Under the pieces are notes generated by a model that was given only the letters and a program-made list of their open reading frames with translations, was not told the origin of the DNA and made no database searches. A stretch of 56,571 bases of DNA from Pseudomonadota bacterium (lineage in GTDB: Bacteria; Desulfobacterota; Desulfobulbia; Desulfobulbales; Desulfocapsaceae), in assembly GCA_018820855.1 (NCBI GenBank), contig JAHJNL010000072.1:1-56571 (forward strand). Direction: 5' to 3'. The translations under genes and the position numbers were made by a program. Shown here piece after piece: positions 13,273-56,571 of the stretch (position 1 is its first letter; the number at the start of each line of letters is the position of its first letter).

Positions 13273-14769
13273 ATGGCACATCGAATCCTCTCCATAGACC
13301 TGCAAAGTGATCTGCTGACAGCAGTGATCCTGGACGGCGAAAGAAACCATGAAATCCTCGCCTCCACTGTTGTGGTGACAGGAAGCAGACTCCCCGAAGA
13401 GGTCATCGGTGAGCTGACAACTGGAATGGACAGTAAGGATTGCCGGTGTTTTCTCTCCCTAGGCGCTTCGTTCTTCTCTTTCCGGAATCTCATCCTGCCC
13501 TTTTCCGACCGGAAGTCTATCGATAAGATCCTCCCCTTTGAACTTGAAGAAAGCACGGCGAGCCCCATCGACACCATGCTCATTGATTCCATGGTCTACA
13601 GGGGGGAAGAAGAAACGGAAGTCATTGCCGCTATGATAGACCGCAAGACCCTGTCCGAGTGGTATGCAGCATTGCAGCAGGCAAAAATCTCTCCTGAAGT
13701 CATAACACTATCCGGTCTCCCCACTCTTTCCAGCATCCGAGAAAACGGTCACCCCCCGGAAGAATTCATCTTTCTGGACTTAAGACTGGAAAACGGTGCG
13801 CTTTTCCTGATCTCCTCAAACAAGCTGCAACTAATCAGGCCCCTGGTCTTTGATGCAGGACGAAAAGCTGGCTTCACCTTTGATAAAGAGAATGGAGAAA
13901 TTCATATCCAGAGGCCTGAACATGGTGCTGAATCCTTTCGTGAACTTGCTCTGGCGGTAAGACAGACTCTGGTGTCCCTCTCCCTTTCTACCCCCCTGGA
14001 AAACCTTCCCATTTATATCGACGGAAGTTCAGGATTGGCACAATCAGCAACCTCATGGCTGGAGGCCGCCTTTAATAGACCCTGCCTCATCTGCGGGCGT
14101 GCCGGGTTGCTTCCTCTCCCTTCCCCGCTGCCCGCGCAAACCGAGGGGCATGCCCGTCTCCTGACTTCCTGCCTAAGCCTTGGCATGCAGGGAGGAAAAG
14201 CGAAAACAGCCTTCAATTTCAGTAAGGAAGAGTTTGCCCCTCACAGGGGTCTGGCCAGCTATCGTAACCTGCAGAGACTGATCGCCTTACCTCTTATCGC
14301 TTTCCTGCTCCTTACCCTTGGCTATTTATGGTACAACACCAACGTCCTCAAAAAAGAGCAGGAAGCTCTGGTAACCGAAATTCGCGGAGTTTTCACAGAG
14401 ACATTACCAGAAGTGAGCCGAATTGTAGACCCCCTGCAACAGCTGCAGGTGGCCATCGACAAAAGCAAGCTCACATCAACAGAGGGTGCGGGCACCACTC
14501 TCCCCTACACGGTACTCAATGTCCTACACGAAATCTCCACACGCATCCCCTCATCCCTGGACGTCCGTCTCACCCGCCTGGTTTACGAAAGCAAGGGACT
14601 GCGCCTCATGGGCATCACCGACACCTTTAATACCGTGGATAATCTGAAAAAAGACCTCGAACAATCACCGAACTTTACTGGCGTGACTATCAGTTCCGCC
14701 AACTTGAACCCCAAGGACAGCAAGATCCGTTTTGAATTGAGAGTAGACTGTGGAGGCAGCACACCATGA
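13273..14769 (+). CDS. gspL: T2SS inner-membrane protein GspL (PilM/PilN-like)
   Basis: The 498-residue protein has a cytoplasmic actin-like half opening with RILSIDLQSDLLTAVIL, one membrane segment near 336-355 (LIALPLIAFLLLTLGYLWY), and a periplasmic ferredoxin-like half containing NVLHEISTRIP and VRLTRLVYESKGLRLMG, which resembles PilN/GspL. GspL recruits the ATPase GspE to the inner membrane and pairs with GspM. It starts four bases after gspK ends and overlaps gspM by four. Confidence 0.85.
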   Translation: MAHRILSIDLQSDLLTAVILDGERNHEILASTVVVTGSRLPEEVIGELTTGMDSKDCRCFLSLGASFFSFRNLILPFSDRKSIDKILPFELEESTASPIDTMLIDSMVYRGEEETEVIAAMIDRKTLSEWYAALQQAKISPEVITLSGLPTLSSIRENGHPPEEFIFLDLRLENGALFLISSNKLQLIRPLVFDAGRKAGFTFDKENGEIHIQRPEHGAESFRELALAVRQTLVSLSLSTPLENLPIYIDGSSGLAQSATSWLEAAFNRPCLICGRAGLLPLPSPLPAQTEGHARLLTSCLSLGMQGGKAKTAFNFSKEEFAPHRGLASYRNLQRLIALPLIAFLLLTLGYLWYNTNVLKKEQEALVTEIRGVFTETLPEVSRIVDPLQQLQVAIDKSKLTSTEGAGTTLPYTVLNVLHEISTRIPSSLDVRLTRLVYESKGLRLMGITDTFNTVDNLKKDLEQSPNFTGVTISSANLNPKDSKIRFELRVDCGGSTP

Positions 14770-15347
14770 GTCCTTCCCCTTTGTCCGCTATCATTCAAAC
14801 CCTGATCGAAAAAACTGGGTGGGATCGCATGGCCAAGCGTGAAAAAATCATGATATGCGCCCTTGTGCTCTTTGCCACTGCTCTCCTCATCTTTCATTTC
14901 ATTTTTTCTCCCATCCTTGATTCCCGGCAGCGCCTGCAGAAATCCTTGATCAACAAGAAGGTAGAACTCCAGAAAATCCGCACTCTGCAGAAAGAGTATC
15001 AGGCCCTTCAATACCAGACAGGGGATATTCAGGAACGAATAACCAATAGGCCTAAAACATTCACCCTCTTTTCCTTTATAGAACAGCAGGCTACTGCGGC
15101 CAAAATCAAAGAGCAGATCAGTTATCTCAAACCCAGTGAGGTGGAAGGAGATGGTCCCCTGAACGAGTCAAGGGTGGACATGAAACTGCAGAGGATCACT
15201 CTTGCAGATCTTGTCAATTTTCTCAAGGGGGTAGAATCACGCAATAATGCAGTTTTCATCAATCGGATCTCCATCCAGGAACATGGCAAAGACGAAGGCT
15301 ACGTGAATGCCGTGATCCAGATTATCACCTTTAGAGAAGCATCATGA
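14766..15347 (+). CDS. gspM: T2SS inner-membrane protein GspM
   Basis: This 193-residue protein has a short cytoplasmic start, one membrane segment at about 30-50 (IMICALVLFATALLIFHFIF), a coiled-coil-like stretch (QRLQKSLINKKVELQKIRTL, 20 residues), and a small periplasmic ferredoxin-like domain with VNFLKGVESRNNAVFINRIS. This is the GspM/PilO architecture. It is the partner of GspL in the assembly platform. Four-base overlaps on both sides confirm its place in the operon. Confidence 0.85.
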   Translation: MSPSPLSAIIQTLIEKTGWDRMAKREKIMICALVLFATALLIFHFIFSPILDSRQRLQKSLINKKVELQKIRTLQKEYQALQYQTGDIQERITNRPKTFTLFSFIEQQATAAKIKEQISYLKPSEVEGDGPLNESRVDMKLQRITLADLVNFLKGVESRNNAVFINRISIQEHGKDEGYVNAVIQIITFREAS

Positions 15348-16234
15348 ATTTTTTCAGAAACAAAGTTATTCTTTTTTTCAGCCTGATCCTCTACACTCTG
15401 CTCCTGACAGCCACCCTGCTCTACATCCGTTTTCCTGCAGAAAAGCTCAAGATATCCTGTCAATACAGACTGGAACAGTTGCTGCCCCGGACTCATTGCT
15501 CCATTGGCCAACTGAGCTACCGCTTCCCCTTCAGTCTGGTAGCCCAAAAAATACAATTCAGCAGCAGTGTGGGAGAAGGCACCCCGCTCGTCACCATAGA
15601 TCAGGCAAGCATTACCCCGGTCCTGGCAAGTCCAAAATCTCGTTTCCTGGTCACCCTCAGCGCCTGCGGCGGTAACCATGATTTCACCCTGATTCTTAAC
15701 CGTACCGATCATGAATTCAGTCTCAAGGATATTCGTATTACAGAACTCGACCTGTCCAAGCTCCCCTTTCTCCATCAGGCCACAGCAAGAGAAATCATTG
15801 GCAGTCTCGAAGGAAACGGAACATATCATGGTATCTGGAAAAATGATAAATACGAGACCGAAGGCCATGGAACAATTACGCTGAGCAAAGGTAGCTTCAG
15901 CCTGCTTTATCCTATTCTCTCTCTCAAAAAAATCGATCTCAAAAAATTAGAAACGGATATCACTTTTCAGGGAGGCAACCTGAAGTTCGAGAAAGGAACC
16001 TTCAATGGGCAGGAGCTAAAAGGAAATTTTTCTGGTAGCCTTGGACTGAATTCAGGATTGGGAACATCCACCCTCTCTTTTCAAGGAAACCTTGACCCCC
16101 TGCCTCCCCTCTTAAAAACGAGCAAGCATGCGAAAAACATGGTAATTCTCCTGAAGAAACGACATAATCGAAATGGTCTACCCTTTCGTCTTGATGGGAT
16201 AGTACAAAAACCGATCTTCAGTTTTGACTCCTGA
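15344..16234 (+). CDS. gspN: GspN-type T2SS protein
   Basis: The 296-residue protein has one N-terminal membrane segment (VILFFSLILYTLLLTATLLY) and a long beta-rich, AsmA-like periplasmic region with repeated short strands such as GTYHGIWKNDKYETEGHGTI. Length, topology and operon position match the deltaproteobacterial GspN family (TIGR04411 type). Its role in secretion is not well defined. The assignment rests mostly on architecture and context, because GspN sequences diverge widely. Confidence 0.75.
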   Translation: MNFFRNKVILFFSLILYTLLLTATLLYIRFPAEKLKISCQYRLEQLLPRTHCSIGQLSYRFPFSLVAQKIQFSSSVGEGTPLVTIDQASITPVLASPKSRFLVTLSACGGNHDFTLILNRTDHEFSLKDIRITELDLSKLPFLHQATAREIIGSLEGNGTYHGIWKNDKYETEGHGTITLSKGSFSLLYPILSLKKIDLKKLETDITFQGGNLKFEKGTFNGQELKGNFSGSLGLNSGLGTSTLSFQGNLDPLPPLLKTSKHAKNMVILLKKRHNRNGLPFRLDGIVQKPIFSFDS

Positions 16235-49700: not shown

Positions 49701-50420
49701 GCTCTCCGCAAAGAGGAGACAAAGCGACTTTGCACAGAGGAAAGCCAGGAACTGACACAAAAACTTGTCGAGCAGGAAAAACAGTTGGCACAGCTCCTTG
49801 AACAAGCTGGTGCAGCTCGGGAGAAGATGAAGAATAATGATATAGACAAAGAAAGGGCCGCTGCAAGACTGGCGTTTATCGAAACCCAAAAGAAAACAGT
49901 GGGCCGCTGGAACAGACTGCACATGCTCATCGGCTCTGCCGACGGCAAGAAATTCAGAAACTTTGCTCAGGGACTCACCTTTGAAATGATGATCAGCCAT
50001 GCGAACTCCGCTCTCGGCCACATGAACAACCGTTATATCCTGGTCCGAGACCGTAACCTGCCTCTTGATCTCAACGTCATCGACACCTATCAGGCAGGCG
50101 AAGTGAGATCCACCAGAAACCTCTCGGGCGGAGAATCATTTCTTGTCAGTCTCTCCCTGGCTCTGGGGCTCTCCCGTATGGCCAGTAATAATGTACGGGT
50201 AGACTCCCTCTTCCTCGATGAAGGGTTTGGCACACTTGACGAAGAGACCCTGGAAGCAGCACTCGACGCCCTCTCTCAGCTTCGTGAGGACAACAAGCTC
50301 ATCGGTATTATCTCCCATGTGGGGGCGCTCAAAGAACGAATCCCCCTGCAAATCGAAATCACCCCTGGTAGCGGCGGCAGAAGCACAGCCAAGGGCCCTG
50401 GAGTGACAAAGGACAATTGA
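46746..50420 (+). CDS. sbcC: nuclease-associated ATPase SbcC (Rad50-like)
   Basis: The 1224-residue protein has Walker A GPTGAGKSTLLDAICLALYG near the N-terminus, long coiled coils on both sides of a zinc-hook motif CPLC (Cys600 and Cys603), and a C-terminal ATPase lobe with the ABC signature NLSGGESFLVSLSLALG and Walker B SLFLDEGFGTLDEE. The zinc hook joins two SbcC arms to tether DNA. The length and hook position fit full-length SbcC. A small membrane-protein gene starts at the stop codon (TGATG). Confidence 0.96.
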   Translation: MKILQIRFQNLNSLAGAWHIDFTDPAYSENSLFAITGPTGAGKSTLLDAICLALYGRTPRLAKISKTSNEIMSRQTGFCFAEVEFETVKGHFRCHWSQHRSRQQASGELQQPKHEIADAATSTILESQIRNVANRVEEVTGMDFDRFTRSTLLAQGGFAAFLQASPDNRAPILEQITGTEIYSRLSIKVHELRGDEQAKLQEMEQTLAHITLLSPSEEEELLKIVRDREQQSELGKRGTADTRQKLDWLNMLTRLKKEIEEYNRQLQVITAEENDSAAELKRLPSALAAREIEPVYQEYKTLVTSQDKDTVEIKHLGSSLHDLLSLQKKADDGCRNGEKELQQAEMEEKSGETLIKQVQELDLRLQAAEEQLLERTTILTDLYRQQQEEVAALKTLEQNLALEEIRKKKLCFFFKQQAGDEKLVEDFSALQIEISSIFNLQARGMAHAEARKKAEQDTLKKKQSAIQLASEEAPLQKKISAIEQVVNGLKQERSQLLQGRDAESLQQDLFSVQSLEKTVKTLLLLIEEKDVHTQEIDSLDRQLLQAASRTRELNTALHQVGKEISARQNEVELLEKSLFLLARIQSLEAERNRLQDGTPCPLCGATTHPYSQENIPAISAEETRLQETKTALITLEKKSTELTGLGIVCREQQKNLSSRRKELTEDLAKKEKTLEQVLANLELPPLKQINLQEIQEREQSLKLQERTLQKNFDRLKEINKELAGVEEKGKELIKTQQNLERNILNFNHQLSSANQEQQRLLQEERVLCAELEKTTGSLFYKLASYKIREPSPDKLPAILEELGKRTEEWKKKKEEDTQVDALILTLGAKRSHQQELLEKLTVQAAEQDAQQSKTKETVATCKESRSKLFGCKNTGEEAKRLESAVMNARKKLAQKSKECADITNKIIAARTLQERLESECHNRLQKIQKQKKRLDQALKSSSFADLHQFLAARLQPQELDKLLELQHSLQVRKTKYQTLREDKENALRKEETKRLCTEESQELTQKLVEQEKQLAQLLEQAGAAREKMKNNDIDKERAAARLAFIETQKKTVGRWNRLHMLIGSADGKKFRNFAQGLTFEMMISHANSALGHMNNRYILVRDRNLPLDLNVIDTYQAGEVRSTRNLSGGESFLVSLSLALGLSRMASNNVRVDSLFLDEGFGTLDEETLEAALDALSQLREDNKLIGIISHVGALKERIPLQIEITPGSGGRSTAKGPGVTKDN

Positions 50421-50701
50421 TGAACTGCTGCCAAAAATTATTCCACCGTTATTCTTCCCGCAACCGGGCTGTCATCTGTCTCAGATGGATTAACCCCATA
50501 CGCATTCTGGTGATAGCCAGTCTCCTCTGTCACCTGCTCTATAAAATCGTCTGGCCCCCGCCACCATTTGCAGGCATCATAACCCTTATTCACATCTTTC
50601 TCGCCTTTCTCCTCCTGGCCGAGTGCCGACGAAGCGTCCGTTTCCACAATTCAGTCAAAGAATGGGAGGCCCTGGAGGCCAGACGAAAAGAACTTCTCTG
50701 A
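50420..50701 (+). CDS. small membrane protein of unknown function
   Basis: This 93-residue protein starts at the ATG overlapping the sbcC stop (TGATG), so it is probably translated with sbcC. Two hydrophobic segments are seen (IRILVIASLLCHLLYKIVW and GIITLIHIFLAFLLLAEC), followed by a charged C-terminus (WEALEARRKELL). No family was recognised. A TTG three bases upstream is an alternative start. Confidence 0.5.
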   Translation: MNCCQKLFHRYSSRNRAVICLRWINPIRILVIASLLCHLLYKIVWPPPPFAGIITLIHIFLAFLLLAECRRSVRFHNSVKEWEALEARRKELL

Positions 50702-50919: not shown

Positions 50920-52083
50920 GTGCGCACTATGAATATGAAAACAAATGAGGATATATGCTGCTCTTCCGAAGTAGCCAGGGGCCGTAATTGCTGTAATCCG
51001 CATAAAAGATGTCACACCAGTACCTGGGAACAACTGTTTAACGCCATACAGGATCCTGTTCTAGTGGTTCGCCCGGATGGGATTATCATTGAGGCCAACG
51101 ATGCCACCCTGCATGCAGCCCAAAAAAGCAGGAAAGAAGTTGTTGGTCAGGGAATCTGCAAGATTGTTCATGGCGGCAAGTGGCCGCATATCAAATGTCC
51201 TTTGGAGGAATTTCTTAAAACCTGTACTCCAAAAGTTGAAGATACGCGCCTTCCCGGATTCTTTGGCGAATATTCTGTTACCATCTCACCTGTCAAAGAG
51301 ATGGATGGCAAAATAGATAAAATCATGCTCATTGCCAGAGAGCTCACAAGTGATGAAATTCAAAAGGTGGATTCCATCAGGACAGCCAAACTTGCTGCCA
51401 TAGGTGAGCTTGCTGCAGGCGTTGCCCATGAGGTCAACAATCCAATTACCGGGATTATCAACTTTGCCCAAATTCTTCTGGATAATTACGATCTTGACCC
51501 TGCTGGTATTACTATTGTCCAGAAGATTATTGATGAAGGCGATCGGATAGCCTCTATTACCCACAATTTGCTCTCTTTTGCACGGGCAGACGGTTGTGAA
51601 CGGGAGCCCGTCAATCCTGTAGAAGTCGTCAAAGAGTGTCTTACACTCGTTCAGCACCAACTCAAGATGGACGGAATCATGGTAGTGACTGAGTACCCCC
51701 CAAATGACTCTTTCATTATCGCTGATTTCGGTCAGTTACAGCAAGTACTGTTAAATCTTATCAGTAACAGCCGCTATGCCTTAAACGCAAGATACCCGGG
51801 TACTGATCCCCAGAAAATAATTAAAATCTCCTGTCTTAAGAAGGAAGATAAAGAGCATCCTGTTTACCGATTAATTGTAAAGGATTATGGAACCGGCCTG
51901 CCCCAGTCTATCCTGGAACGCATTTTTGAACCCTTTTTTACCACTAAGCCCCCTGGTGAGGGAACAGGACTGGGACTCAGTATCAGTTATGGAATTATAA
52001 AAGATCATGGAGGCGACCTGCACGTTAACTCAATTCTGGACAAATTTACTGAAATGATCATTGAACTTCCAAGCAAGATATAA
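50920..52083 (+). CDS. PAS-domain sensor histidine kinase with Cys-rich N-terminus
   Basis: From the GTG at 50920 (GAGG six bases upstream) the product has 387 residues; ATG codons at 50929 and 50935 are alternatives. Residues 13-32 hold five cysteines and two histidines (CC at 13-14, CC at 24-25, C31). A PAS domain ([20 protein letters not shown]) contains a further Cys pair ([11 protein letters not shown]). The kinase core has the H-box GVAHEVNNP (His170), N-box [10 protein letters not shown] and G-boxes DYGTGLP and [10 protein letters not shown], as in NtrB-like kinases. No membrane segment is seen, so it is a cytoplasmic sensor. The regulator gene begins five bases after its stop. Confidence 0.9.
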
Positions 52084-52087
52084 GGTT

Positions 52088-53887
52088 ATGGAAAAAAATC
52101 TCTATTCTTCAAAAATTCTCATTGTTGATGATGAGGAATCCATCAGACAGACCTTTGAGATATTCCTTACATCCGCAGGATATCAGTTTGTCAAAACCGT
52201 AGCTACTTTTGATGAAGCTATGGAGACAATGGCCCTGATATCATACGATTTAATTATCAGCGACATAGTACTGATCGGACCTTGCGGGACAGATCTACTC
52301 CAAAAAACAAGAGAATCCGGGGTCAAGTGTCCGGTTATTATGATCACGGGATTTCCCAATCTCGAGTCTGCCGCCAAGTCTGTCCGACATGGAGCCTTTG
52401 ATTATATATCAAAGCCGGTAAACAAAGAGACCCTTCTGCGTTTTACCAGACAGGCCCTTCAACACTGGTATCTGGAAAACAAAGCCAGGCACCTGCAGCG
52501 GGAAAATGAAAAGTATCGACGCTACCTGGAAACAATTTTTCGTTCGGTCAGCGATGCGATCATTACTGTTGATGCCAACATGCATATTGTTCAACTCAAT
52601 GAGACGGCAGAACAATGGCTGAGGGAAAAAGGGATAAAAGGCATCTCTGATCTTGAACATCTGCCTCTTGAACATCTGCCTCTTGAGGTAAGTTTTGCCT
52701 GTCTCGACGATGTCCGCAATGTTTTACAGCATGGAAGCGAGGTAAGAAAGCACCTGATTGAATGCCATACTCCCAATAACAAAACAAAGATGTTCAGCGT
52801 CAATGCCTCTCCTTTACGGGGGGAAGATGAGGAATTTCAGGGTGTTGTAATCGTAGCCAGAGACCTTACCATTGATGAGCCTCAAGAAATCAATAAAATC
52901 CGCAATCGTTTCCATGGCTATGTAGGCCCTAGCCCAGTCATGCAAGAGGTATATAAGCTCATCGAAAACATTGGCAAGGTCGATACTGCCGTTCTCATCA
53001 CAGGCGAGTCCGGAACCGGTAAAGAACTGGCTGCGGAGGCACTCCACGCAGAGAGCTCACGGCGTGACAAACCGCTCATCAAGATGGATTGCGTCTCTGT
53101 TGCCGAAAATCTCCTGGAAAGTGAGCTCTTTGGTCATCGTAAAGGAGCCTTTACCGGTGCAGACAGAGACAGACCCGGCAGATTGCTTCAAGCCGACGGC
53201 GGAACGCTGTTTCTTGATGAAATTGGTGATATTTCGCCTCGGACACAACTACTTCTTTTGCGTTTTTTACAGGAAAAAACCTTTACCCCGGTTGGCCAGG
53301 ATAAACCGATACAGGTCGATGTCCGAGTCATAGCCGCCACCAACGCCGACTTACAGGAAATGGTAAAACAGGGGAAATTCCGGGAGGATCTCTATTATCG
53401 TCTTAAAGTCATTGAAGTTAAGCTTCCTCCTCTGCGCGAGCGAACCATTGGTATCCCACTGCTTGCCAAGCATTTTCTTGAACTCTTCCGCAAGCAACTT
53501 GGCAAAAAGATTGCTACAGTCTCGGACCAGGCACTTGAGTGCATGTCTCGATATTCCTGGCCAGGCAATGTCCGCGAGTTGAGACATGTCATGGAAAGGG
53601 CCTGTGTTCTCTGTAATGGTCCGGTTCTGCTGTTAAAACATCTCCCTGAAGAGTTACAGAGACCAATCGTCAGGGAGGTTCATCCTACAGCCGTTTCTCC
53701 TCCTCCTATTCCTCAAAACAATTTACCAACAGCGTTTGCAGCAAACATTCACTATCTGCCGGAAGATATGAAGATCATAAAGGCTCTCAGGCAAGTAAAT
53801 GGCAACAAGGCAAAGGCTGCCAAACTTCTTGGAGTTGCCCGCTCCACACTTTACAGACAGATGCAACGGTACAATATAGAAGATTAA
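52088..53887 (+). CDS. sigma-54-dependent response regulator (REC-PAS-AAA-Fis)
   Basis: Starting at MEKNLYSSKILIVDDEES, the 599-residue protein has a receiver domain with the phospho-acceptor Asp59 (LIISDIV), a PAS domain (about 145-265), an AAA+ domain with Walker A GESGTGKE (306 on) and the sigma-54 contact loop GAFTGA (353-358), and a C-terminal Fis-type helix-turn-helix (ALRQVNGNKAKAAKLLGVAR). It should be phosphorylated by the adjacent kinase and activate RpoN promoters by binding upstream enhancers. The HLPLE unit near residue 200 is duplicated by a 15-bp tandem repeat at 52652-52686. The next 625 bp contain a fitting enhancer array and promoter. Confidence 0.94.
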   Translation: MEKNLYSSKILIVDDEESIRQTFEIFLTSAGYQFVKTVATFDEAMETMALISYDLIISDIVLIGPCGTDLLQKTRESGVKCPVIMITGFPNLESAAKSVRHGAFDYISKPVNKETLLRFTRQALQHWYLENKARHLQRENEKYRRYLETIFRSVSDAIITVDANMHIVQLNETAEQWLREKGIKGISDLEHLPLEHLPLEVSFACLDDVRNVLQHGSEVRKHLIECHTPNNKTKMFSVNASPLRGEDEEFQGVVIVARDLTIDEPQEINKIRNRFHGYVGPSPVMQEVYKLIENIGKVDTAVLITGESGTGKELAAEALHAESSRRDKPLIKMDCVSVAENLLESELFGHRKGAFTGADRDRPGRLLQADGGTLFLDEIGDISPRTQLLLLRFLQEKTFTPVGQDKPIQVDVRVIAATNADLQEMVKQGKFREDLYYRLKVIEVKLPPLRERTIGIPLLAKHFLELFRKQLGKKIATVSDQALECMSRYSWPGNVRELRHVMERACVLCNGPVLLLKHLPEELQRPIVREVHPTAVSPPPIPQNNLPTAFAANIHYLPEDMKIIKALRQVNGNKAKAAKLLGVARSTLYRQMQRYNIED

Positions 53888-54253
53888 TGCCTTGTAACTG
53901 ATCTTCCTCCAGTCCATGGTGTCCGACCTGCGGCCATGCCCTTGCTTCGCTCAAGGACAACGCAAAAATGTCTTTGAACCTTCAAAAGCCAAAACCTGCT
54001 TCGGCAACATCGATACACAAGCAATGAGACACTCCGAAAGAGTTGATTTACTCCTTTTTCTCTTCCCGGACTTTCTTAACATGTCCGAATAAAGGGGTCA
54101 GGAAACAGAACACCTGTTTTTTTCCTGTTCTTCCTCTCATCTCAGCAATTTTCCCCAGACCTTCACCGGGTATCATTTTCATACAAAAGACTGATTCAAA
54201 TCAAACACTAAAAAGAGACCTGTTCCACTGCCTATCACAAAAAGTGTAGCCCC

Positions 54254-54303
54254 GAGACACTTTTGGGACACAAACGGGACACTGGCGGAACACAATGGGA
54301 CAC
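54254..54303 (+). repeat. five GGGACAC-type direct repeats with one-turn spacing
   Basis: Copies are GAGACAC (54254), GGGACAC (54265), GGGACAC (54276), GGAACAC (54287) and GGGACAC (54297), with start-to-start steps of 11, 11, 11 and 10 bp. All therefore face the same side of the helix. They lie about 135-185 bp upstream of the sigma-54 promoter at 54438, the usual distance for enhancer sites. A further GAGACAC is at 54025 and a reverse TGTCTC at 54315. The remaining 625-bp gap holds no recognised gene. Confidence 0.7.
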
Positions 54304-54437
54304 AACAAGAAACCTGTCTCACTCATGCTACAATGAGGAAATCTCGCTGTAACATTTTCCACATTCTTATTGTTTATTCATAACAAAACAATAGGTTACT
54401 TAAGTGAACATCTAGCACAAAAACATTACTCAAACTT

Positions 54438-54453
54438 TGGCACGCATTATGCA
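54438..54453 (+). promoter_or_regulatory. sigma-54 (-24/-12) promoter of the twin small-protein genes
   Basis: TGGCACGCATTATGCA matches the RpoN consensus TGGCAC-N5-TTGCA at all but one position, with exact GG-GC spacing. Transcription would start near 54465, about 50 bases before the first small gene. An A/T-rich inverted repeat ATTGTTT/AAACAAT (54369-54392) lies between it and the enhancer repeats. Confidence 0.82.
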
Positions 54454-54512
54454 ATGTTGCATGTACGAATCAAACAGAAACACAATCTCTTCAATCAAAA
54501 AAAGGAGATACC

Positions 54513-54737
54513 ATGAGTGAAACAATTCTCAGTAAAGAACGAAGTCAGGCCGGAATTCAGGAAAACTCTACAGCCACCGTTTCCACAGAAATTGATAAGC
54601 TAATAATTGGCACTATTGCTGCCTTTACCGGAATTGTCGGACTGTGGAGCGTAGCCTGCCTCATGAGCGCTATGTTTCAGGCAGGTGGACCTCTGCAGCT
54701 GGTCGCTGGCTATTTCAAGGCTTTGGCCGGCATGTAA
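54513..54737 (+). CDS. small single-span membrane protein A (paralogue of B)
   Basis: This 74-residue protein follows an ideal AAAGGAG site. A polar N-terminus of about 29 residues, rich in Ser, Thr and Glu, precedes one membrane segment (about 30-55, IIGTIAAFTGIVGLWSVACL) and a short amphipathic tail with FQAGGPLQLV, ending in AGM. By hand alignment it shares 48 of 74 positions with the next gene, without gaps; identity is nearly complete from residue 42 to 64. No known family was recognised. It is the first gene after the sigma-54 promoter at 54438. Confidence 0.85.
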   Translation: MSETILSKERSQAGIQENSTATVSTEIDKLIIGTIAAFTGIVGLWSVACLMSAMFQAGGPLQLVAGYFKALAGM

Positions 54738-54799
54738 GTACAAAAACAATCTGAGAGACAACTTCAGTTATCTATACAATTCAAAAAGAGGTAACGACA

Positions 54800-55024
54800 A
54801 TGGAAGATAGAGTACTCAGCAAACAGCAAACCAAAACCACAGTCCATGAGGACTCAACAAGCACTGTTTCGCACGAGGTGGACAAGGTTATTATTGGTAG
54901 TATTGCTGCTTTTGCAGGTGTTGTTGGGCTTTGGAGTTTGGCCTGTCTCGCCAGTGCCATGTTCCAGGCAGGGGGACCACTGCAGCTTGTTGGCGGTTGG
55001 TTTAAAGCTGTTAGTGGCATGTGA
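54800..55024 (+). CDS. small single-span membrane protein B (paralogue of A)
   Basis: This 74-residue protein has AAGAGG upstream and the same layout as its neighbour: a variable polar N-terminus, a membrane segment (IIGSIAAFAGVVGLWSLACL), and the conserved SAMFQAGGPLQLV with a final SGM. The invariant W45, C49 and GGP motif suggest a specific packing or partner surface. The gene arose by tandem duplication with 62 bp between copies. A terminator lies 56 bp after the stop, so the pair forms a transcription unit that may be read through into ftsH at a lower level. Confidence 0.85.
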   Translation: MEDRVLSKQQTKTTVHEDSTSTVSHEVDKVIIGSIAAFAGVVGLWSLACLASAMFQAGGPLQLVGGWFKAVSGM

Positions 55025-55080
55025 CATCCGCTAAGAAGGTCAGCATGGGAAGAAAACGGGTAATATAAAGAGTGGAAGAC

Positions 55081-55124
55081 ATAAAAGAAGCCGGCTGGAT
55101 TTGCATCCTCCCGGCTTCTTTTAT
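55081..55124 (+). terminator. intrinsic terminator after the twin small genes
   Basis: ATAAAAGAAGCCGG (55081-55094) pairs perfectly with CCGGCTTCTTTTAT (55111-55124), and flanking GAAG/CTTC can extend the stem. It has T-rich sequence on the 3' arm and separates the small genes from ftsH. Confidence 0.75.
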
Positions 55125-55249
55125 ATACTCTTCACAGGGAGATCTCTTGAAATTAAGTTCTACAATCAACTGGCTGACAGGTCCTTTGTCCGATTGTAAC
55201 GATTTCATATCTTGTTCCCTCTCTATCAATGTCACGACTGCCTTAGCAG

Positions 55250-55265
55250 TGGCACTCTTTTTGAA
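55250..55265 (+). promoter_or_regulatory. possible sigma-54-like promoter upstream of ftsH
   Basis: TGGCACTCTTTTTGAA has a perfect -24 box and correct spacing, but the -12 element reads TTGA instead of TTGC. It lies 33 bp before the ftsH start, after the terminator. The missing GC makes it doubtful. Confidence 0.3.
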
Positions 55266-55297
55266 AACCTCTTTTCATTTCCGGAGACGTAAAAACC

Positions 55298-56571
55298 ATG
55301 GCCATGCTTGCCCGTAACCTCCTCGTCTGTTTTCTGTTTTCCATGTTAGCCATGTTCATGGCACTACTCTGGTTTATGGAACACCGACACCCAACTCAGG
55401 ACTACAGCGAAGTTATTGAGCGCTTAAACAACAATCAAATTGTCAAACTTGAATTTACCGGTAACAGGGTCGCTTTTACGGATCGAGATGATCATACTTT
55501 TGTGACAACTGTTCCGGATGTCAGCAAGTTTCTCGAAAGAGTTCAGGAAAAGCATATTCGCGTTATTGTCAAAGAGGACCGGTTCAACCTGATTTACATG
55601 ACTATCATTTCGGTGTTCGTGGTCGTGTTGATCATGGTGGCCTGGTGGTCTTTACAGCGCAACAAAAAAGAAGATAGCAAATTCGCAAGTGATAAGCTGG
55701 TCAGTCTGAGCGGAAAAGAGCTCGGTATTACCTTCAAAGATATTGCAGGAATCTCTGAAGCCAAAGAAGAATTGATGGAAGTCGTCACCTTTCTTAAATA
55801 TCCCGCTAATTTCAAAAAAGTCGGAGCAACTATTCCCAGGGGTATCCTGCTTCAGGGCCCGCCGGGAACCGGTAAAACAATGCTGTCAAAAGCTGTTGCC
55901 GGTGAGGCAGGTGTGCCGTTTTACAGTTTCAGCGGTTCTGACTTTGTTGAAATGTTTGTAGGAGTCGGTGCCTCAAGGGTCAGAGATCTTTTCAAAGAGG
56001 CAAAAGAAAACGCTCCCTGCATTGTCTTTATTGATGAAATTGATGCCGTTGGTGCCAGCAGGACCAGTGGCTCATCAGCAGGAGGTCAGGAAGAAAGGGG
56101 GCAGACGCTCAATGCCCTGCTCGTTGAAATGGACGGCTTTGCCACAGAAGACACCATTGTAGTGCTGGCAGCCACGAACAGGCCTGACATCCTTGATTCA
56201 GCCCTGAAACGTCCTGGCAGGTTTGATCGACAGATCAACATACTGCCCCCTGATGTGAAGGGAAGAAAACAGATTCTGGAGGTACATGGCCGAAAGGTGG
56301 CACTACATCCTGAGGTCGAATTTGAGGACCTGGCCAAGGCAACTCCTGGTTTTACAGGTGCAGAGCTTGCAAACCTCGTCAATGAAGCCGCTTTGATGGC
56401 AGCCAGGAAAGGAAGAGACCAGATTGTCAATGAAGATTTTGAAAAGGCCCGTGACCGTATCCTCATGGGAGTTGAACGTAAAGGAATGGTAATGAGTGAT
56501 ACCGACCGGAAAATCCTTGCCTACCATGAGGCTGGCCATGGAATTCTTGCCAAAAAGCTGCCTCACTCCGA
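55298..56571 (+). CDS. ftsH: FtsH-family membrane AAA protease (3' end cut by window)
   Basis: The frame is open from ATG 55298 to the window end (424 residues). It has a membrane segment at about 5-26, a small periplasmic domain (about 27-95), a second membrane segment ([17 protein letters not shown]), Walker A GPPGTGKT (from Gly187), Walker [10 protein letters not shown], the second-region-of-homology [19 protein letters not shown], and the zinc site HEAGH (410-414). FtsH extracts and degrades membrane and short-lived soluble proteins. GGAG lies 11 bases upstream of the start; a second ATG is two codons in. The segment [18 protein letters not shown] departs from the usual GRQRG...DEREQ, which suggests a paralogue rather than the main housekeeping FtsH. 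Confidence 0.95.

Follow-up and report, generated by a model that had tools for sequence, protein, structure and literature searches.

Small membrane proteins with predicted sigma-54 promoters, linked to a distinct FtsH subfamily and to electron-transfer genes, at a locus in the Desulfocapsaceae

Several described systems combine small membrane proteins with FtsH, the M41 AAA protease. In the Psp system, small inner-membrane proteins are driven by sigma-54 and FtsH is involved, while in cyanobacteria multicopy one-helix membrane proteins of the HLIP/Scp type are found in the neighbourhood of a specialised FtsH and of an energy-transducing complex. A locus that resembles each of these in part lies at positions 50920-56571 of a 56,571-nt contig (JAHJNL010000072.1, assembly GCA_018820855.1; the whole contig is hereafter the window) from the 4.82-Mb, 106-contig genome of a member of the Desulfocapsaceae. 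It encodes a histidine kinase, a sigma-54 regulator, two small membrane proteins of a 74-amino-acid (aa) type (SPs) and an FtsH. Although our confidence stays somewhat below even, the reading we favour, from sequence, is that redox complexes of the NrfD/Hmc type have SPs as small, inducible partners and that a dedicated FtsH turns the SPs over.

The likeness to Psp lies in the sigma-54-driven small membrane proteins and the FtsH. The locus differs in its two-component control, in SPs that match no Psp model (31 sequences scanned) and in a regulator that scores far under cut-off against the PspF models (261.5 of 443.55 and 222.4 of 529 bits). With a PspF-type activator and SP–Psp matches both wanting, it does not qualify as a Psp system; the genome was not searched for PspA. 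With HLIP/Scp proteins the SPs share their multiple copies, their single helix and the company of a specialised FtsH and of an energy-transducing complex. However, SPs have no Pfam or NCBIfam match to such a family, and both the regulation and the lineage are different. The kinase and regulator recall AtoSC, ZraSR and NtrBC, as the best NCBIfam model is AtoS in the case of the kinase and AtoC, followed by NtrC, in that of the regulator, but all were under cut-off among the models listed (25 each), and here a membrane pseudo-kinase is encoded downstream. Titles and abstract openings of the literature searched, with supplements outside that scope, held no description of an SP-with-FtsH system. 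FtsH, Hmc and 'small membrane' do not occur in the main text of the D. vulgaris sigma-54 regulome paper (PMC4641369), nor do FtsH, Hmc, sigma and NrfD in the D. sulfexigens genome paper (PMC3739170).

A preliminary description of this DNA listed a kinase, its activator, a repeat array, an RpoN promoter, two paralogous 74-aa proteins and FtsH in that order, and all are present as described. Gene order, promoter, array and hairpin are read directly from the DNA:

50920..52083, plus strand: PAS histidine kinase (Pfam PAS_4, HisKA, HATPase_c), starting at GTG 50920 or ATG 50929
52088..53887, plus strand: NtrC-type sigma-54 response regulator (Pfam receiver, PAS, sigma-54 AAA and Fis-type HTH, HTH_8; GAFTGA present)
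54254..54303, plus strand: enhancer-like array of five G[GA][GA]ACAC heptamers, spaced 11, 11, 11 and 10 bp
54438..54453, plus strand: predicted sigma-54 promoter TGGCACGCATTATGCA, matching the consensus at 11/12 positions
54513..54737, plus strand: SP1, 74 aa, with a single hydrophobic stretch (family alignment)
54800..55024, plus strand: SP2, a 74-aa paralogue with 65% identity to SP1 (pairwise comparison)
55086..55119, plus strand: terminator-like hairpin (-20.4 kcal/mol), then TTTATATA, between SP2 and ftsH
55298..56571 (window end), plus strand: 5' part of ftsH, SP-linked subfamily (TIGR01241, E 3.9e-161)

The gene set does not stop at ftsH. The end of the window (contig C58) overlaps that of contig C62 by 141 identical nt, and C62 carries the remainder of ftsH (L098, 15833-16579, minus strand) and then, on the same strand, genes for a 309-aa protein (P305) and for proteins of 490, 258 and 389 aa (C, L and G are handles for contigs, loci and genomes; the window's own genome is G000). 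By our own profiles the last three are NapC-like, iron-sulfur (FeS) and NrfD-like, with domain names taken from the homologues at a related locus, L005. Because the set continues into a pseudo-kinase and cytochrome, FeS and NrfD genes, it is not a closed SP–FtsH circuit.

SPs themselves form a recognisable family of 64-77 aa, with G-x-W-x3-C in the hydrophobic stretch, a GP and a C-terminal A-x2-G. Across 31 aligned members M1, C49, G59 and G73 are invariant, and G43, W45, P60 and A70 are kept in at least 90%. Scanned singly, the 31 gave no Pfam match at E 0.01. Three matches were set aside: HdeD for SP1 (E 0.016, 15 of 189 bits), a weak hit to an NCBIfam polyprenyltransferase model for one of the 31 (E 0.0073) and phrog_10090, of unknown function, for two (E 0.00089). 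The AlphaFold prediction, from 22 SP sequences, is a long helix that breaks at GGP and is followed by a short one at the C-terminus (mean pLDDT 64). The N-tail is hydrophilic, with an estimated median length of 29 residues; FtsH needs about 20 residues of tail to grip, and SP tails would be long enough. The family occurs in 77/116 genomes of the order, where a single genome may have as many as 14 copies, and in 21/395 genomes of the phylum. The window's genome has 13 copies: two at this locus, five plus one on C49, two on C90 and three on C104. The five on C49 belong to a second kinase–regulator–SP–FtsH cluster and the single one lies near a third FtsH. The second cluster (L048, G000:C49:62001-81000) reads kinase–regulator–SP(x5)–FtsH–P305–cytochrome–NrfD. 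The preliminary description spoke of twin SPs, which is right for the window, but the number beside one regulator elsewhere ranges from 1 to 6.

That SP genes are sigma-54-dependent is predicted from their promoters. TGGCACGN5TGCA matches the window once, at 54438, with 0.01 expected. A contig scan found 12 relative loci (L005-L016), all in metagenome-assembled genomes titled Desulfocapsa or Desulfobulbaceae (six), Candidatus Desulfobia pelagia (one) or with broader names (five). Promoter and array are kept in 12/12 of them; here, as in the window, the sigma-54 site matches at 9-11 of 12 positions and lies 65-90 nt upstream of the start of the first SP (distances for L013 and L016 re-measured). 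Beyond these loci, a sigma-54-like site scoring at least 12.5 of 14 was found within 260 nt upstream of 101/122 SP groups, where start codons were placed by profile match and every group had at least 200 nt of upstream sequence. By set, the counts are 41/42 with a regulator just upstream, 14/14 for unlinked units of SPs and two-transmembrane-helix (2-TM) proteins, 25/35 with FtsH and no adjacent regulator, and 21/31 with none of regulator, FtsH or unlinked 2-TM unit. Shuffles (60 per group) reaching the observed score averaged 7.3 over all groups and 1.5, 0.2, 11.4 and 13.8 per set, the high values being driven by groups lacking a site. A wider regulon is suggested, since SP genes distant from FtsH mostly carry sigma-54-like promoters too. 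Seven SP pairs or triplets with no FtsH or 2-TM gene within 9 kb (L147, L148, L149, L161, L170, L176 and L186) have a sigma-54-like site ending in GGCA, not TGCA. In the window's genome TGGCACGN5TGCW has 8 matches (control 0), and the seven other than this promoter (L090-L093, L095-L097) are possible further sigma-54 promoters.

The heptamers of the window's array begin at 54254 (GAGACAC), 54265 (GGGACAC), 54276 (GGGACAC), 54287 (GGAACAC) and 54297 (GGGACAC). Over 13 loci (the window and the upstream regions of the 12 relatives), GGGACA occurs 50 times against a mean of 1.6 in 200 shuffles, and pairs at exactly 11 bp occur 22 times against 0 in all 200. Counting against the array, bare GGGACAC is unenriched window-wide (9 found, 5.7 expected). 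Perfect GGGACAN5GGGACA has one site in the 4.8-Mb genome, this array; as about 0.6 would be expected by chance on our own arithmetic, this speaks to the lack of another perfect pair and not to the significance of the hit itself. A one-mismatch search of the genome for this upstream activating sequence was uninformative, with 18 matches against 31 in the reversed control; one of the 18, the perfect one, is this array, and two more also fall within it.

Upstream patterns differ between cluster types. By eye, GCAACAC repeats mark the second cluster type in G422, whereas a third type and the unlinked SP units of the window's genome have a common CAACACTT...CCACAC/CTACAC pattern. For this reason, each regulator type seems to have an SP set of its own, with one such set dispersed. 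The self-contained circuit of the preliminary description may hold for the window's array, but other SP genes are scattered and, by eye, have another enhancer pattern in common with a different FtsH cluster. A further shared feature is a terminator-like hairpin with T-run in the gap that separates ftsH from an SP or 2-TM gene, seen in 37/50 gaps against 0.10 expected from shuffles.

The FtsH linked to SPs is distinct. The window part has the AAA domain, the lid and the start of M41 with HEAGH, M41 positions 1-189 being on C62; together they carry the AAA and M41 (HExxH) parts of an FtsH protease. The score against TIGR01241 (537.8 bits) falls short of the 600-bit cut-off, as the contig ends within the gene. 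FtsH_ext is also under cut-off (24.1 vs 25.5 bits), and an N-terminal membrane anchor is seen by eye. In a tree of 102 rows, a clade of 78 FtsHs (SH-aLRT 99) contains 77/80 SP-linked rows and that of L214, with an SP array some 14 kb away in the same genome. Outside it are 21 other FtsHs, comprising housekeeping and other paralogues and including those of genomes lacking SPs. Three FtsH-profile picks labelled as SP-linked (L058_8940, L166_623 and L188_2842) branch far off, outside the clade. The window's truncated FtsH, absent from that tree, was included in a second, where the clade has 79 rows (SH-aLRT 100); its nearest neighbours are those of L006, L008 and L005, and it is 93% identical to L006's over 424 columns. 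Both trees are quick searches with SH-aLRT support only and no bootstrap. A Cys-rich C-terminal tail, C-x10-35-CxxC-x4-9-C, marks 38/57 of the main SP-linked subclade, 0/21 of the 2-TM-linked subclade and 0/21 other FtsHs. In line with the dedicated FtsH of the preliminary description, SP-linked FtsHs form a single clade that takes in the window's protein.

Presence of SPs also goes with extra FtsHs. At least three M41 matches were found in 62/75 SP-positive and 0/21 SP-negative genomes, counted as matches and not genes, so that split genes, fragments and distant M41 proteins are included. The counts cover 75/77 SP-positive genomes (G088 and G145 left out) and 21/39 SP-negative ones, chosen by us and, through relatedness, non-independent. 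With M41 matches better than 1e-50 in the complete-list subset, at least three occur in 26/28 SP-positive genomes (G376 and G475 have two) and 0/8 SP-negative ones. A partial FtsH M41 match with an internal stop lies at G000:C72:1690-1884.

Co-occurrence of neighbouring genes was examined in 124 SP clusters (235 genes, 61 genomes), a sample that excludes L005-L016. Of 105 regions drawn, one covered by another was dropped and 104 were taken, to which 18 earlier SP regions were added; the L198 region had no SP above threshold. The clusters were drawn from the matches listed, which miss at least G142:C296, G205:C155 and G357:C119, so that the seed's close relatives weigh too heavily in the sample. 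The preliminary description would have lost its footing had SPs mostly occurred without the regulator or FtsH. Overall they do not: within 9 kb, FtsH is present for 77/124 clusters and a sigma-54 regulator for 71/124, or 55/85 and 54/85 where flanks of at least 6 kb exist on both sides. Chance proximity of FtsH would be about a few percent, which is our estimate from 3-8 M41 matches per 2-5-Mb genome and not a control. A NapC-like, FeS or NrfD-like gene lies within 9 kb of 75/124 clusters and a 2-TM protein gene beside 33/124. Among clusters without FtsH, the most widespread neighbour family is present in six genomes. In G422 (same genus, 2 contigs), by contrast, FtsH is within 9 kb of only 2/8 clusters and 6/13 SP genes placed, with 14 matches in all. 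Among the 12 relatives, SPs are followed by FtsH and P305 in 11 (the L013 contig ends at the SPs), and kinase and regulator are both upstream in nine, L007, L008 and L015 beginning too late to show both fully. The order shared by relatives and further clusters is kinase–regulator–SP–FtsH–P305–(NapC)–(FeS)–(NrfD), with members missing in some.

The kinase has only PAS, HisKA and HATPase-type Pfam domains. It had been described as Cys-rich, and a Cys/His set in the PAS domain, C-x3-H-x5-H-x2-C-x8-C, is indeed conserved (columns kept in 26, 26, 24, 26 and 23 of 26 kinases). Its N-terminal Cys stretch, by contrast, was rejected as a conserved redox sensor, the columns being kept in just 4-13 of 26. 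The regulator has the receiver, GAFTGA-bearing sigma-54 AAA and HTH of an NtrC-type activator. Over 51 aa P305 matches the DHp part of the kinase at 33%, but in 23/23 rows listed Asn takes the place of the phospho-acceptor His, against His in 24/24 kinase rows listed with the motif, and no ATPase domain was found. Its structure model is a helical bundle with a helical periplasmic domain and a DHp-like hairpin (mean pLDDT 68). A fold search returned NarQ fragments (probability 0.99), with TTYH proteins top by E-value at low TM-score. P305 is read as a membrane pseudo-kinase that probably forms a split sensor with the soluble kinase.

The link to redox complexes rests on the neighbours and on the 2-TM proteins. 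At L005, the multihaem cytochrome, FeS and NrfD-like genes 3' of SPs and ftsH give a likeness to the Hmc-type (NrfD-like) transmembrane complexes found in sulfate reducers, but the cytochrome is NapC/NrfH-like (best to NrfH, no HmcA match), the FeS protein is nearer NrfC, then DsrO, than HmcB (79.6 bits vs cut-off 420), and the NrfD-type protein scores 38.8 of 550 bits to HmcC. By the HmcA, HmcB and HmcC equivalogs, tested on this homologue, the window-type operon is not an Hmc complex; FtsH, SPs and a sigma-54 system are moreover added here, and HmcE and HmcF were not looked for. A likeness is also found at L047, in the window's genome, whose neighbours include HmcB-like (397.8 bits, cut-off 420, E 2.8e-119) and HmcC-like (363.5 bits, cut-off 550, E 1.5e-108) proteins, as well as a 104-aa 2-TM protein (L047:7235-7549) with an HmcD-like C-half (E 2.1e-4, 21.2 bits vs cut-off 34). 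At the same locus an IS1595-like transposase (14527-15441) lies between the third cluster's ftsH and its sigma-54 regulator. The SP profile, run on the N-halves of six 2-TM proteins, gave E 4.7e-6 and 2.2e-5 (both L060) and two values of 0.03-0.04. This 2-TM bridge to Hmc is suggestive, not firm. Together with the redox neighbours, it is why SPs are favoured as partners of NrfD-type complexes, a link that is weaker than those of SPs to FtsH and to sigma-54 promoters.

The following scheme would accommodate these features. The soluble PAS kinase, probably with membrane-anchored P305, would sense the state of the envelope or the quinone pool and phosphorylate the NtrC-type regulator, which would bind the helically phased GGGACAC array and fire the sigma-54 promoter. 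The hairpin after SP2 would keep most transcripts short, so that SPs are made in excess, while read-through or a second promoter would supply FtsH, P305, the NapC/NrfH-like cytochrome, the ferredoxin and the NrfD-type subunit. Once induced, SPs would most likely join a membrane redox complex of the NrfD/Hmc type, either as small subunits or as partners that protect it, and SPs would be removed by the FtsH subfamily together with damaged or unassembled subunits. Regulator binding, the kinase–P305 pairing, read-through, the SP role and the FtsH substrates are all steps that we infer. The fullest form of the proposal is held a shade more tentatively still: one-helix proteins driven by sigma-54, present in many copies and sharing an invariant Cys in the membrane, would act as interchangeable small subunits or as guards for NrfD/Hmc-type complexes; a Cys-tailed FtsH that co-evolved with them would keep them in check, with soluble kinase and membrane pseudo-kinase as the split sensor.

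Several observations weigh against SPs as redox-complex partners. The 2-TM proteins of L047 and L050 are not significantly SP-like (E 5.7; no hit), and because the former belongs to the Hmc cluster, our confidence, already short of even, was lowered slightly. None of the 31 SPs has a convincing match to HmcD (NF045712, cut-off 34 bits; no hit at E 0.01 or better) or to another NCBIfam model, and no credible relative of the SP alignment or the 2-TM protein was found among solved structures (best E 0.8 and 0.19). Neither FtsH nor a 2-TM gene is near 35/124 clusters (22/85 with flanks of at least 6 kb); for several of them all three redox families are missing as well, and redox partners vary by cluster type. 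In 13/75 SP-positive genomes there are only 0-2 M41 matches, eight of the 13 being in family f109 and five of those eight less than 90% complete. SP net charge gives no decision on topology, and P305 matches NarQ only weakly, with E no better than 0.15.

In other systems FtsH is acted on by small membrane partners, and SPs could likewise serve as adaptors or inhibitors for the dedicated FtsH; once induced, they would redirect or throttle the protease and then be degraded. This is unlikely but a serious alternative: the SP-linked clade, the co-occurrence of SPs with M41 matches, an FtsH within 3 kb of 61/124 clusters and the hydrophilic N-tail all agree with it. However, 47/124 clusters have no FtsH within 9 kb, the 13 genomes with at most two M41 matches fit it poorly, and one SP sits in an Hmc-like cluster. 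Alternatively, SPs might be abundant structural proteins that shape the membrane or stabilise lipids in stress, with FtsH and the redox genes merely co-regulated. High copy number (up to 14 per genome), sigma-54-like promoters, terminator-like hairpins and units unlinked to FtsH would suit such a role, yet SPs are accompanied by an FtsH subfamily of its own kind, something for which mere co-regulation gives no need, and we regard this role as improbable. Small membrane peptides switch off some kinases, and a role for SPs as feedback ligands that turn the response off through P305 or the kinase would explain why P305 lies within 9 kb of 46/124 clusters and a window-type kinase within 9 kb of 48/124. 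It receives little credence here, as P305 is not within that distance of 78/124 clusters nor the kinase of 76/124, and up to six SPs beside one regulator would be unusual for a feedback peptide. A chance neighbourhood of kinase–regulator pair, small ORFs and FtsH can be dismissed, since order, footprints and FtsH clade are all conserved and nothing was found in its favour.

Further upstream, the window holds a 94-aa hydrophobic open reading frame (50417-50701) after a gene that is SbcC-like by eye. Frames of 93 aa occupy the equivalent place at L005 (4064-4345) and L006 (3945-4226); that of L005 has no Pfam match and a best NCBIfam match of merely E 0.26.

Taken together, SPs, their sigma-54 promoters, the special FtsH and the electron-transfer genes point to an undescribed system that would manage membrane redox complexes. 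By the names of the relatives, the order in which it occurs includes sulfur-cycling anaerobes. The regulator–enhancer pairs (GGGACAC, GCAACAC and the third pattern) would form a natural set for studying activator specificity, and the tie between SPs and FtsH bears on why some bacteria retain several FtsHs. The link of SPs to an FtsH clade and to quinone-redox genes may thus offer an entry point to the upkeep of respiratory membrane complexes in anaerobes.

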